The notes under the pieces are model-generated. The model was not told where the DNA came from. It searched no databases and saw nothing but the letters and a program-made list of their open reading frames with translations. Positions 50,468 to 53,774 of a DNA stretch of 64,000 bases are shown here, piece after piece (positions within the stretch are counted from its first letter, which is position 1; each line of letters begins with the position of its first letter). This DNA comes from Arenimonas oryziterrae DSM 21050 = YC6267 (GTDB taxonomy: Bacteria > Pseudomonadota > Gammaproteobacteria > Xanthomonadales > Xanthomonadaceae): positions 1-64,000 of the forward strand of contig NZ_ATVD01000001.1 in NCBI RefSeq assembly GCF_000420545.1, written 5' to 3'. The position numbers and the translations under genes were made by a program.

Positions 50468-50536
50468 GCGCCCTTGCGTCCGCGTTTCGACCAAGCCGGT
50501 AACGTGCGGCGACTCGAAACGCGGGCGCAAGGGCGC
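50468..50536 (+). repeat. Conserved-core hairpin repeat, copy 1 (+)
   Basis: Left arm 50468-50490, centre 50491-50513, right arm 50514-50536. The arms are complementary at 22 of 23 positions. The centre contains AAGCCGGTAACGTGCGGC, invariant in the plus-type copies. Copy 1 stands alone in the divergent region before the pseudouridine synthase gene. Confidence 0.95.
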
Positions 50537-50598
50537 CAACGCGACGCCCTCCGGCAGTCATGCGCTTACACTGACGAACATTCCCACAGGTTTCCCCC

Positions 50599-51321
50599 AT
50601 GTCCGATCCGGTTCGCCTCGCCAAACGCGTCATCGAACTGACCGGCTGCTCGCGCCTGGAGGCCGAGCAATACATCGAGGGCGGCTGGGTGCGCGTGGAC
50701 GGCGAACTGATCGACGAACCGCAGTTCATGGTGTCCGGGCAACAGGTCGAACTCGATGCGAACGCCCAACTCGCACCCACCGAACCGGCCACCCTGCTGC
50801 TGCACAAGCCCTCCGGCTTCGACTCCGTCGACGGCCCGCAACCGGCGGCGCCGCTGTTGAATGCCGATTCGCGCTGGCAGGACGACCCCACCGGCATCCG
50901 TTTCCTGCGCCGGCATTTCGCCCGCCAGACGGCCGTCATGCCCCTCGAACGCGACGCCAGCGGCCTGCTCGTCTACACCCAGGACGGCCGACTCCTGCGC
51001 CGCATCGGCGAAGACGCCGATCGCATCGAACAGGAATTCGTCGTCGAAGTCGCCGGCGAAATCAAACCCTACGGCCTGCGCCAGCTCGCCCTCGGCCTGC
51101 ACTACCAGGGCCGCGCGCCCGCGCCGGCGAAAGTCAGCTGGCAAAACGAAACCCGCCTGCGCTTCGCCATGAAAGGTGTCCGCGACGGCCAGATCACCGC
51201 GATGTGCGCCGAAGTCGGCCTGCAGGTCGTCTCGATCAAACGCCTGCGCATCGGCCGCGTCTCGCTCGCCAAGATGCCCATCGGCCAATGGCGCTATCTG
51301 CCTGGGAACGAGCGGTTGTAG
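50599..51321 (+). CDS. rRNA pseudouridine synthase, RluB/E/F type
   Basis: 240 residues. An S4-like RNA-binding domain covers about residues 1-60 (RLAKRVIELTGCSRLEAEQY, GGWVRVDGELI). The RsuA/RluB catalytic region follows: LLLHKPSGFDSV and the catalytic block MPLERDASGLLVYTQDGRLL with Asp in ERDASG. LRIGRVSLAKMPIGQWRYL near the end is typical. It isomerises a specific uridine in rRNA; the site cannot be assigned. It lies between repeat copies 1 and 2. Confidence 0.95.
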   Translation: MSDPVRLAKRVIELTGCSRLEAEQYIEGGWVRVDGELIDEPQFMVSGQQVELDANAQLAPTEPATLLLHKPSGFDSVDGPQPAAPLLNADSRWQDDPTGIRFLRRHFARQTAVMPLERDASGLLVYTQDGRLLRRIGEDADRIEQEFVVEVAGEIKPYGLRQLALGLHYQGRAPAPAKVSWQNETRLRFAMKGVRDGQITAMCAEVGLQVVSIKRLRIGRVSLAKMPIGQWRYLPGNERL

Positions 51322-51351
51322 AGCGGTTGTAGAGCGGGGCTTTCGCCGTAG

Positions 51352-51420
51352 GCGGTCTTGCATTCGCGCTCCGAGTCGCCGCACGGTACCGGCTTGGTCG
51401 GAGCGCGAACGCAAGCCCGC
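51352..51420 (-). repeat. Conserved-core hairpin repeat, copy 2 (-)
   Basis: Arms 51352-51374 and 51398-51420, complementary at 21 of 23 positions; centre 51375-51397 in minus orientation with one base changed (CACGGTACC instead of CACGTTACC). Its arm sequence is unique in the set. Confidence 0.95.
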
Positions 51421-51501
51421 TCGACCAAACGCAGAAAATTTATGGGAAAAGCAAAAGCATCAAGCAGAGCTTTCCCGCCGTGATGTACCTCAACCGATCG
51501 A

Positions 51502-51570
51502 GCGCCCTTGTGCTCGCGATTCAACCAAGCCGGTAACGTGCGGCGACTTGAAGCGCGAGCACAAGGGCGC
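51502..51570 (+). repeat. Conserved-core hairpin repeat, copy 3 (+)
   Basis: Arms 51502-51524 and 51548-51570, complementary at 22 of 23 positions; centre 51525-51547 identical to copy 1. The arms differ from copy 1 with matching changes on both sides. Confidence 0.95.
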
Positions 51571-51637
51571 CCTCAGCGTCGCAGCATCGATGTGCGAGCT
51601 TGGAATCATCAAGAGATCAAAATCGTCCATGGCGAAG
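51571..51637. repeat. Inter-element spacer B, copy 1
   Basis: 67 nt between copies 3 (+) and 4 (-). It starts with GCAGCATCGATGTGCGAGC after a few bases and includes GGAATCATCAAGAGATCAAA. A close copy lies at 53187-53253, and its first part recurs after copy 5. Confidence 0.85.
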
Positions 51638-51706
51638 GCGGTCTTGCCTGCGCATTTCGAGTCGCCGCACGTTACCGGCTTGGTCGAACTGCGCAGGCAA
51701 GACCGC
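51638..51706 (-). repeat. Conserved-core hairpin repeat, copy 4 (-)
   Basis: Arms 51638-51660 and 51684-51706, complementary at 22 of 23 positions; centre 51661-51683 in minus orientation. Arms identical to copy 6 and nearly so to copy 8. Confidence 0.95.
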
Positions 51707-51776
51707 CAGACCAACCGTAGAAAATTGAATGAAAAACCGACGGTTTTGTAAGCAATGATGTACCTCATCCGGTCTA

Positions 51777-51845
51777 GCGCCCTTGTGCTCGCGATTCAAC
51801 CAAGCCGGTAACGTGCGGCGACTTGAAGCGCGAGCACAAGGGCGC
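51777..51845 (+). repeat. Conserved-core hairpin repeat, copy 5 (+)
   Basis: Arms 51777-51799 and 51823-51845; centre 51800-51822. Arms identical to copy 3. The spacer before it contains the separate hairpin AAAACCGACGGTTTT. Confidence 0.95.
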
Positions 51846-52055
51846 TTTCTGCGACGCAGCATCGATGTGCACGCTGCGAGCCGAAACATCATGCCAAGCC
51901 AAGAAATCGTGTTCACCTAAATGAACCCGAAAATATTTCATTAAAAACCCATCGCAAACAGCCGTTTTTGCTGACCGCCAGCTGAAGCGGTGCTTACATG
52001 TTGACCGCTGTGGCTGTTAGCCTCGAAAGCCCCCCGCTGCTCAGAGGCCACTGCC

Positions 52056-52583
52056 ATGTCCATCTGGAAAGATCAGTCCCCCGCCAAGCCCGCACCGACG
52101 CCTGCGCCCGACACCAAAGAGGCCAACCGTCCCAGTTTCGTTCCGCCCGAACCCGAACCCTTCCGCGCCGCCCCCACCCCGCCCGCGCGTACCGAGCCCG
52201 ACGTCGTGCGCAAGGAATCCACCATCGCCGCCGACATCACCATCGAAGGCAAGATCGATGGCGCCGGCAGCGTCCGCATCCACGGCAAGTTCAAGGGCGA
52301 CGTCAACGTCCAGGGCGACTTGACCATCGAGTCCGGCGCCAAGGTCACCGGCGGCGTGCATGCCGACAAAGTCATGGTCTCCGGCGAACTCGAAGGCAAT
52401 ATCGAAAGCGCCTCGCGTGTCGAACTGCTTGCGACCGGCGTCATCATCGGCGACGTCAAAGCCACCTCAATGACTGTTGCCGCCGGTGCCCGCATGCGCG
52501 GCCAGGCCGATTTCGGCTGGGACGACAAAGCCGGGAAGTCCGGCCGCAATGGCGGCCACGCGGAGAGCGGTTCGAGCTCATGA
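52056..52583 (+). CDS. Bactofilin
   Basis: 175 residues. The bactofilin (DUF583) beta-helix core covers about residues 50-155, with repeating strands such as STIAADITIEGKIDGAGSVR, IHGKFKGDVNVQGDLTIESG and VTGGVHADKVMVSGELEGN. The ends are Pro-rich and Gly/Ser-rich and disordered, as usual. Bactofilins polymerise into cytoskeletal filaments linked to cell shape or polar functions. It overlaps the zinc-ribbon gene by 4 nt. Both flanks carry the repeat arrays. Confidence 0.95.
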   Translation: MSIWKDQSPAKPAPTPAPDTKEANRPSFVPPEPEPFRAAPTPPARTEPDVVRKESTIAADITIEGKIDGAGSVRIHGKFKGDVNVQGDLTIESGAKVTGGVHADKVMVSGELEGNIESASRVELLATGVIIGDVKATSMTVAAGARMRGQADFGWDDKAGKSGRNGGHAESGSSS

Positions 52584-52951
52584 GCAATCTGCGCCCGGGC
52601 ACTCCAGGGGCAACCCGCGAGTGCCCGCATTGCAAGGAAGCCATCCTCGAAAGCGCGGCGATCTGTCCGGGCTGCAAGCATCATTTGCGCTTCGAGCCCG
52701 GCGCAATCGCGACCGACCCCGGCACGCTGACGCCGCTGCGCATCGAAGGCAGCATCCGCCACCCGCCCGATGGCGACCCCTGGGAATACAACGTCGTCGT
52801 CTCGATCCGCAACGATCGCGGCGAGGAAATCGCCCGCAAACTCATCGGCGTCGGCGCGATCAATCCCAACGAAATGCGCACGTTCACCCTCGCGGTGGAA
52901 GTGATGCCCGTGAAATCCAAAAAACCGCTGAAGGCCGGCACAAGGCACTGA
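52580..52951 (+). CDS. Zinc-ribbon protein coupled to bactofilin
   Basis: 123 residues from the ATG at 52580, overlapping the bactofilin stop (ATGA). An N-terminal zinc ribbon (ECPHCKEAILESAAICPGCK) precedes a beta-rich domain (LRIEGSIRHPPDGDPWEYNV, ARKLIGVGAINPNEMRTFTL). No membrane segment. It probably works with the bactofilin, but this is by position only. The tail is basic (KSKKPLKAGTRH). Confidence 0.85.
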   Translation: MSNLRPGTPGATRECPHCKEAILESAAICPGCKHHLRFEPGAIATDPGTLTPLRIEGSIRHPPDGDPWEYNVVVSIRNDRGEEIARKLIGVGAINPNEMRTFTLAVEVMPVKSKKPLKAGTRH

Positions 52952-52967
52952 GCTTTCTTCGCGAAGG

Positions 52968-53036
52968 GCGGTCTTGCCTGCGCATTTCGAGTCGCCGCAC
53001 GTTACCGGCTTGGTCGAACTGCGCAGGCAAGACCGC
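52968..53036 (-). repeat. Conserved-core hairpin repeat, copy 6 (-)
   Basis: Arms 52968-52990 and 53014-53036; centre 52991-53013. Arms and centre identical to copy 4. It begins 16 nt after the zinc-ribbon stop. Confidence 0.95.
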
Positions 53037-53117
53037 CAGACCAACCGCAGACAATTTATGGGAAAAGCAAAAGCACCAGCCCATGCTTTTCCGCAGTGGC
53101 GTACCTCAACAGACAGA

Positions 53118-53186
53118 GCGCCCTTGCGTCCGCGATTCAACCAAGCCGGTAACGTGCGGCAGTTCAGAGAGCGAACGAGAGGGCGC
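53118..53186 (+). repeat. Conserved-core hairpin repeat, copy 7 (+), decayed
   Basis: Left arm 53118-53140 and first 20 bases of the centre are intact, but the right part (from about 53161) has diverged, so pairing is only partial. This is the only degenerate copy of nine. Confidence 0.85.
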
Positions 53187-53253
53187 CAATCGCGACGCAG
53201 CATCGATGTACGAGCTTGGAATCATCAAAAGATCAAAAGCGTCCATCGCAATG
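53187..53253. repeat. Inter-element spacer B, copy 2
   Basis: 67 nt between copies 7 (+) and 8 (-); close copy of 51571-51637 (GCAGCATCGATGTACGAGC, GGAATCATCAAAAGATCAAA). Confidence 0.85.
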
Positions 53254-53322
53254 GCAGTCTTGCCTGCGCATTTCGAGTCGCCGCACGTTACCGGCTTGGT
53301 CGAACTGCGCAGGCAAGACCGC
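53254..53322 (-). repeat. Conserved-core hairpin repeat, copy 8 (-)
   Basis: Arms 53254-53276 and 53300-53322; centre 53277-53299 in minus orientation. One base of the left arm differs from copies 4 and 6. Confidence 0.95.
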
Positions 53323-53403
53323 CAGACCAACCGCAGAAAATTTATGGGAAAAGCAAGGGCATCAAGCACAGCTTTCCCGCTGTGATGTACCTCAACAGAC
53401 AAA

Positions 53404-53472
53404 GCGCCCTTGCGTCCGCGATTCAACCAAGCCGGTAACGTGCGGCGACTTGAAGCGCGGACGCAAGGGCGC
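53404..53472 (+). repeat. Conserved-core hairpin repeat, copy 9 (+)
   Basis: Arms 53404-53426 and 53450-53472, complementary at 22 of 23 positions; centre 53427-53449. Compared with copies 3 and 5, the middle of both arms has changed together. Confidence 0.95.
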
Positions 53473-53507
53473 CAATCGCGACACCGTTGCGGAATGCGAG
53501 CTTCCCC

Positions 53508-53774
53508 TCAGCGCAACTGACTATCCTTGCTCCCCCGCCGGTTGTACCCACTGAACCCATCCCCTTCCGCATCGTGGATTTCCTGACAGGAAACGCAGCG
53601 ACGCACGCCCGGCACAGCCTTGCGCCGTGCCGCGGGAATTTTTTCGTCGCAGTCTTCGCAGCGCAGCAGTCCCGGGCCTTGCGGCAGCTGGCTGCGCACC
53701 CGCTTGATGCCGTCCTTGATCGTCGCATCGATCTGGTCTTGCACGGCGCCGTCGCCGGCCCAGCCGGTAGCCAT
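53508..53774 (-). CDS. DksA/TraR-type zinc-finger protein
   Basis: 88 residues. C4 zinc finger CEDCDEKIPAARR...RRCVSCQEIHD matches the DksA/TraR C-terminal domain; a short helical N-terminus (DQIDATIKDGIKRVRSQL) replaces the long coiled coil of DksA, as in short TraR-like paralogues. These proteins can bind the RNA polymerase secondary channel. Whether this one does so is not known. Confidence 0.92.
   Translation of the reverse strand: MATGWAGDGAVQDQIDATIKDGIKRVRSQLPQGPGLLRCEDCDEKIPAARRKAVPGVRRCVSCQEIHDAEGDGFSGYNRRGSKDSQLR

Follow-up and report, generated by a model that had tools for sequence, protein, structure and literature searches.

The first 64,000 nucleotides (nt) of contig NZ_ATVD01000001.1 from Arenimonas oryziterrae (the whole stretch analysed here, referred to as the window) contain an array of nine hairpin repeats, each composed of a 23-nt arm, a 23-nt centre and a second 23-nt arm. 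The array comprises the following features:

50468..50536, + strand: hairpin copy 1, a single copy upstream of an S4/pseudouridine-synthase gene; 22 of 23 arm positions pair
51352..51420, - strand: hairpin copy 2, left member of doublet 1; arms paired at 21 of 23 positions, one change in the core
51502..51570, + strand: hairpin copy 3, right member of doublet 1; 22 of 23 pair
51638..51706, - strand: hairpin copy 4, left member of doublet 2; 22 of 23 pair
51777..51845, + strand: hairpin copy 5, right member of doublet 2; 22 of 23 pair
52968..53036, - strand: hairpin copy 6, left member of doublet 3; 22 of 23 pair
53118..53186, + strand: hairpin copy 7, right member of doublet 3; 15 of 23 pair, 3' arm degenerate (core match at 53143)
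53254..53322, - strand: hairpin copy 8, left member of doublet 4; 21 of 23 pair
53404..53472, + strand: hairpin copy 9, right member of doublet 4; 22 of 23 pair
51342..51641, no strand assigned: 300-nt repeat carrying one (-,+) doublet; further copies at 52958-53257 (80%) and 53244-53543 (73%)

Searching the window with the core AAGCCGGTAACGTGCGGC at up to three mismatches returned nine matches, compared to 0.12 expected from shuffles, and these lie where an earlier interpretation of this DNA, made from its letters alone (the sequence-only reading), had placed nine copies. The same reading had put arm complementarity within intact copies at 21–22 of 23 positions: in the best register this holds for eight of the nine copies, but fails for copy 7. 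The double-sided differences that it described between the arms of copies 3/5 and of copy 9 are indeed present. Folding of copy 1 gave z values of -8.1 as RNA and -7.4 as DNA. The copies alternate in orientation, with copies 2–9 forming four divergent (-,+) doublets, and since the 300-nt repeat is present three times, part of the array is a local duplication.

In the host genome (G000; 3.09 Mb, 25 contigs), the same search gave 31 core matches, with 15 for the core read backwards as a control. We accepted 23 matches on contigs C1–C6 as true copies, 22 of which pair at 18–23 of 23 arm positions and one at 15, and set aside the other eight as chance, given that they pair at only 9–15 positions; in three of the 23 copies the outer arms are unlike the rest (L011, L012 at 4318, L016). 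Together with copies from two further genomes of the genus, a set of 29 copies (23 + 5 + 1; 27 distinct rows) was obtained, in which 93.0% of cells are paired, compared to 70.8% after shuffling and 33–45% with the partners slid, and in which changes on both sides were found at 23 of 29 pairs. A subfamily with the loop GTCACATG in place of GTAACGTG was observed at L013:1990-2817 (G000:C3; three copies in the same direction) and at L012:1838-1910 (one copy). Separately, a small open reading frame (ORF) with a weak, sub-cut-off match to Imm26 (E 0.0011) lies inside a wide doublet at L009:1963-2418.

Across genera, the unit is a stem of 22–25 base pairs (bp) with largely free sequence beneath a conserved 25-nt apex, typically ACCAAG-nnn-RTAWCGKG-nnn-CGACT. 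Folding predicts that the 23-nt centre is itself structured, with an 8-nt loop on a 4-bp stem above an asymmetric internal loop (CCAA/GAC): as RNA, this apex was obtained for five of the six copies folded (the copy from G210 differs), and as DNA it was obtained for the window copy, while for one Thermomonas copy the DNA model gives another fold of the apex. The four positions flanking the loop occur as GCCG/CGGC, GCGG/CCGC, GGCG/CGCC or GCGA/GAGC; 47 of 66 representatives (one each from different stem clusters) have the last of these, in which just two of the pairs are standard, and the apical stem is therefore often only two pairs long. A variant of 89 nt is also present in G201, which keeps the internal loop (ACCAAG...GCGACT in most copies) and carries a different stem-loop as its tip; as this family (L129-L136) shares its arms and has similar flanks, a larger unit seems to have undergone a recent burst. 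In two lineages of metagenome-assembled genomes (MAGs; L186, L192, L196, L230, L254, L269), the stem base carries an extra motif, CCCGGAGGCGG...CCGCCGCAAGGG or similar, below the free inner pairs as a second conserved irregularity.

Scoring of the arms in the 66 representatives revealed that pairing is retained on a stem whose sequence is free: 90.5% of cells are paired, compared to 51.3% after shuffling and 37–41% when slid, and 707 cells show a change on both sides, compared to 212 after shuffling. Complementarity thus holds in a larger sample and extends beyond recent duplication, in line with the arm covariation claimed by the sequence-only reading. Its contrast between a near-invariant centre and variable arms is also seen among the paralogues of G282: a common 25-nt core is found in all 11, an identical 27-nt core in 10, and the stems are near-perfect and widely different. 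Over the 66 stem clusters, 11 apex columns are invariant and seven nearly so, all within the core, a constancy that is partly due to ascertainment because most of the distant copies were collected via the core. Positions outside the core reach at most 0.76 of 2 bits among 30 arm-cluster representatives, and left arms agree at a median of only 10 of 24 positions (190 pairs among 20 copies from three genomes, including some orthologues). The stem also has a defined end: over 244 copies, 85–100% of positions pair at pairs 1–22, falling to 58% and 50% at pairs 23–24, with the drop lying at pairs 24–26 when one copy per cluster is used. Between the closest arm pairs, we observed 42 one-sided and 16 two-sided changes (10 of the latter from one Watson-Crick pair to another), a prevalence of one-sided changes that is expected of stepwise compensation: pairing is kept through compensatory change. 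We also note that in the middle of the stem the 5' arm of the representatives is G-rich and the 3' arm C-rich, a further asymmetry between the strands.

The mismatches that remain in the stems are distributed unequally between the two strands. If only the strand bearing the apex must fold, a G.T mismatch on that strand should be milder than its mirror, A.C. Mismatches were counted in copies with at least 14 Watson-Crick pairs of 24 or 22 and a core within two changes of the pattern, filters that remove strongly decayed copies, and the raw counts over the inner 22 pairs were 245 for G.T and 36 for A.C (223 distinct arm pairs, 246 copies). When each mismatch type was scored a single time at any given position of an arm cluster (281 contexts in 66 clusters), the events relative to the apex strand were 120 G.T to 31 A.C (p 1.5e-13), 45 G.G to 14 C.C (p 6.5e-5) and 39 G.A to 14 T.C (p 8e-4). 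Isolated copies between co-directional genes show no orientation bias (21 sense and 27 antisense, with 18 and 20 intact apices, respectively), and hence the direction of transcription cannot generate the asymmetry. The apex-bearing strand would appear to be the one that is kept foldable, whatever its orientation to genes: the counts themselves are results, and what we infer from them is selection.

Copies are mostly intergenic, lie at gene ends and often form divergent doublets. This mapping against genes, which the sequence-only reading had proposed, used gene models based on a crude codon score trained on the window, and the 28 of 187 copies located inside a gene model probably lie in spurious ORFs. 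After setting aside 159 members of close pairs, 46 copies without usable neighbours and 20 far from genes, isolated copies were found between convergent genes in 29 cases, between co-directional genes in 48 and between divergent genes in 8. Among 68 pairs within 250 nt, 43 are divergent (-,+), 10 are (+,-) and 15 are tandem. G201, with 18 full-length copies, contains repeated units of ~440 bp that have a hairpin at each end, the two ends with different stems. When ORFs within 3 kb of hairpins were compared all against all, the comparison yielded loci that are orthologous (hslV-hslU and the trmL region), and none of the families listed stood out as a partner. Two hairpin pairs ~1970 nt apart in G786 resembled an autonomous element and were rejected, as they hold unrelated host genes.

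A covariance model built from the 29 copies of the genus identified as carriers 4 of 27 genomes in the genus and at least 38 of 395 sampled in the family (6 of 54 genera), a lower bound given the strict filters: at least four sampled Thermomonas genomes missed by the model (G131, G252, G315, G348) carry the hairpin between hslV and hslU. With a degenerate core pattern, at least 117 stretches in named genomes were retrieved, and the matches listed include Luteimonas, Lysobacter, Thermomonas, a Halioglobus MAG, Pseudohaliea rubra and other Gammaproteobacteria, as well as Zeimonas arvi and Burkholderiaceae MAGs. Related hairpins hence occur in Halieaceae and Burkholderiales, beyond the host and related genomes that the sequence-only reading had suggested searching. 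Of our sampled genomes, G241 is probably a Thermomonas, G279 and G346 Luteimonas and G230 a Lysobacter. A sample of 398 genomes from the phylum contained no carrier besides G000, and the distribution is therefore patchy. The exact core of G000 had no match in a genome contig database, a 30-nt core query had none in phage or plasmid records and the exact 25-mer had none in viral contigs; a phage, plasmid or viral origin was rejected on these grounds, with the sole plasmid match (Eleftheria terrae) lying inside a kinase gene and taken as chance. An exact-core search of 198 family genomes added only two single matches without arms, also taken as chance. The highest copy numbers were found in G346 (52) and G786 (50), with none for a reversed-pattern control. 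Of the copies within three mismatches, the share with an exact core is higher in G282 (12 of 13), G229 (6 of 8) and G150 (4 of 7) than in G315 (2 of 7), G291 (2 of 5), G252 (0 of 2) and G263 (0 of 2); G273 has no copy.

The gap between hslV and hslU was read in all 25 Thermomonas genomes and contains the hairpin in 16 of them: 15 were counted as such, and G263, with an altered core, was judged by eye. In the other nine, the gap is short (G329, G273, G217), holds a GGAGCGCACCGC-type palindrome (G150, G183, G167) or a shorter sequence with a similar end (G081), yet another palindrome (G291) or tandem repeats (G300). At least three unrelated kinds of palindromic repeat thus occupy this gap in different species (L302-L331), as if a strong hairpin were favoured there or the gap were a landing spot. 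The arms of the hslV-hslU hairpins drift yet mostly stay paired, and the core is found in either orientation, even within similar arms (such as in G338 compared to G252 and G229), so that the core can apparently flip in place.

This flipping bears on an explanation by mutation, in which replication template switching between the nearby inverted arms overwrites one with the sequence of the other, leaving only the apex selected or simply young. According to excerpts of the literature, template switching homogenises the arms and inverts the spacers of short inverted repeats in yeast (PMC8604942) and stem upkeep by this route has been reported for RNA genes (PMC8794818): both core orientations within similar arms are the product that would be expected, and stems that remain paired in some copies with damaged apices also fit. 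Switching is, however, blind to the apex strand, while the mismatches are three- to fourfold asymmetric with random gene orientation; the closest arm pairs differ mostly on one side, and the sharp end of pairing at 22–25 bp is left unexplained. We therefore regard mutational upkeep as improbable.

A second explanation is that the apex strand is transcribed and that an RNA-binding protein or nuclease reads the apex, held up by a stem of roughly two A-form turns, either at mRNA ends or within a small RNA. The pairing tolerates wobbles on one strand, the apex appears in most of the RNA folds, and the internal loop CCAA/GAC and the GCGA/GAGC tandem resemble RNA motifs. Moreover, at hslV-hslU the apex is exact in nine of ten copies in the sense of the operon and in none of seven antisense copies, some of which share descent; this contrast hints at a role as RNA, or at antisense copies descended from a few decayed ancestors. 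On the other hand, isolated copies lack a sense bias, which led us to reject a strict mRNA element; the apex occurs in either orientation at the same locus, the members of doublets face away from each other, and no conserved upstream sequence was found in 30 clusters. Rfam contained no family matching at its gathering score, with only sub-threshold microRNA matches at the hairpins (best E 0.0036), so that membership of a known RNA family was also rejected. Taken together, an RNA element seems rather unlikely, although we would take it more seriously than template switching.

The interpretation that we favour, and hold to be about evenly balanced between right and wrong, is that these hairpins represent a new class of REP-like (repetitive extragenic palindromic), non-autonomous chromosomal elements that undergo folded, strand-specific recognition through their apex. 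A factor working in trans, most likely an enzyme or a binding protein that meets its DNA single-stranded while this is replicated, repaired or transposed, would read the internal loop and apical loop as an address on the folded apex strand, with the stem serving only as a rigid handle of about two turns. The same recognition would allow the units to spread as REPs do, often as doublets, in some genomes, and the apex would decay in genomes from which the factor had been lost. The factor, the single-stranded DNA stage and spread by transposition are all suggested rather than seen. Presence and absence of the hairpin is insertion-like at two kinds of site: the nine Thermomonas gaps without it and the L012 site, where the matched flanks are 208 nt apart in G000 and 21–54 nt apart in 15 of 16 relatives in which both flanks reach the gap (1058 nt in the sixteenth, G128). 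The sequence-only reading had proposed selection on pairing together with recognition of the centre: the pairing and the conserved centre stand, whereas recognition can only be surmised, no recognising protein having been found. Our analysis supports two additions, namely that the constraint is strand-specific and that the unit behaves like a REP element.

Several observations weigh against this interpretation. No partner gene was found, and the analysis showed neither a target-site duplication, for which the intergenic DNA of the relatives examined is too diverged, nor an empty site at base resolution. The mismatch asymmetry is alike in exact cores (116:23) and in cores 3–7 changes away (6:2), a group that comprises only nine arm pairs, six of them G201 variants. 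One of five covariation measures fails to exceed shuffles in the 66-row set: 26 pairs show a change on both sides, compared to 25.5 after shuffling, and 278 of 500 shuffles reach 26. In the apical stem, standard pairing at the two inner positions is limited to 17 and 18 of the 66 rows, with GCGA/GAGC in 47. The contrast between sense and antisense copies at hslV-hslU, described above, hints at RNA, and stems still pair in some copies with a damaged apex, such as that of G229 at this locus: pairing may therefore partly be kept by something else, which speaks against a single cause.

The hairpins offer a case in which to tell selection apart from template switching as the source of palindrome upkeep. 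With nothing but sequence to go on, the mismatch asymmetry reveals which of the two strands of a scattered palindrome stays foldable, a hard question for REP-like repeats, and the combination of a constant apex with freely drifting stems amounts to a natural experiment in which the ligand must be found by the apex. Identification of this ligand would reveal either a new transposase or binding protein for single-stranded DNA or a new RNA-binding system, and carriers include culturable genera (Thermomonas, Luteimonas, Lysobacter). The core strings were found in none of the papers searched and topic searches of the literature brought up nothing on this repeat, within a coverage that leaves most subscription journals outside.

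Among known systems, the attC recombination sites of chromosomal integrons are likewise folded, one-strand-specific hairpins with variable stems; excerpts of PMC2727003 describe them as being recognised as a folded single strand, with strand selectivity and a free stem sequence. An integron integrase above the curated cut-off is encoded in 9 of 11 carriers including G000 (only carriers were counted), and at L445 (G000:C2, around 762310-763251) the host chromosome has an integron integrase gene accompanied by attC-like sites (GCCTAAC...GTTAGGC). However, the RYYYAAC/GTTRRRY boxes occur in none of the 66 representatives, which led us to reject this identity. Box-bearing attC-like sites do adjoin intI at three of four loci (L442, L444, L445; in G000 and two other carriers), whereas no paired core hairpin is present at any of the four, and the integrase falls below the cut-off in the two genomes with the highest copy numbers (G346, G786). 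The conserved boxes of attC lie low in the stem, whereas the present hairpins are conserved at the apex, and no cassettes were seen: that they are attC sites is a possibility we consider negligible.

A likeness to miniature inverted-repeat transposable elements (MITEs) is apparent in the repeated ~440 bp unit of G201 and in the amplification of doublets. The two hairpins of the unit have different stems, however, and the stem is thus no transposase-specific repeat end; with arms that differ widely among the 11 G282 paralogues as well, shared terminal inverted repeats were not found. The stem-loop origins of rolling-circle replicons also display a conserved loop on a varying but paired stem, whereas the present hairpins are chromosomal, occur in many copies, have a core that was not found in phage or plasmid records (30-nt query) or in viral contigs (exact 25-mer), and were not seen linked to a replication gene. 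Recombinase-in-trio elements were also considered, and a literature search gave no link to them.

The closest comparison is to REP elements themselves, of the GTAG and CGTC superfamilies, and the hairpins could in principle be ordinary members of the REP-associated tyrosine transposase (RAYT) system with unusually long stems. Excerpts of PMC3733652 describe REPs as short palindromes with stems of 5–13 bp, dispersed at gene ends and forming inverted dimers, and our hairpins share these habits as dispersed intergenic palindromes with a preference for gene ends, few sites between divergent genes and inverted dimers. A Y1_Tnp gene is present in 7 of 10 carriers tested, with two in G000: L301 (G000:C2:708347-711634) and L300 (G000:C4:210216-213176), one of which lies beside a different palindrome, TTGTGGGAGCGGGCC..., and the other near AACAGGGGTCAGAGTAC-kind repeats. 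Against this, GTAG/CTAC is found in the outer 8 nt of 1 of the 66 rows, with no strongly conserved base outside the core, and CGTC/GACG in 6, with no conserved column there. Y1_Tnp is absent from three of the ten carriers (G201, G169, G248), an absence that strains the explanation in G201 with its 18 full-length copies. The linked transposase that the sequence-only reading had suggested mapping did not materialise: none of ten ~3-kb Y1_Tnp loci contains a paired core hairpin, and one of the two genes in G000 adjoins a different palindrome. REPs combine a 5–13 bp stem with a terminal tag, whereas the present hairpins are untagged, with stems of 22–25 bp and a conserved apex, and no Y1 transposase is linked to them; identity with RAYT-dependent REPs was rejected on these grounds, and we consider it very unlikely. 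Our best reading is nevertheless that the hairpins count as REP-like by genomic behaviour, although they depart from the described superfamilies in tag, stem length and transposase. REP transposases have been described, in excerpts of PMC8266576, as reading loop or stem irregularities of folded single strands, which by analogy could be the closest model for apex recognition here. It is possible, if somewhat less than evenly so, that the hairpins form an orphan folded-strand system, in which the 25-nt apex would be the address and the stem would carry almost no sequence information, read by an undiscovered enzyme or binding protein with a patchy distribution in Gamma- and Betaproteobacteria: a chromosomal counterpart of attC sites or REPs, turned upside down.

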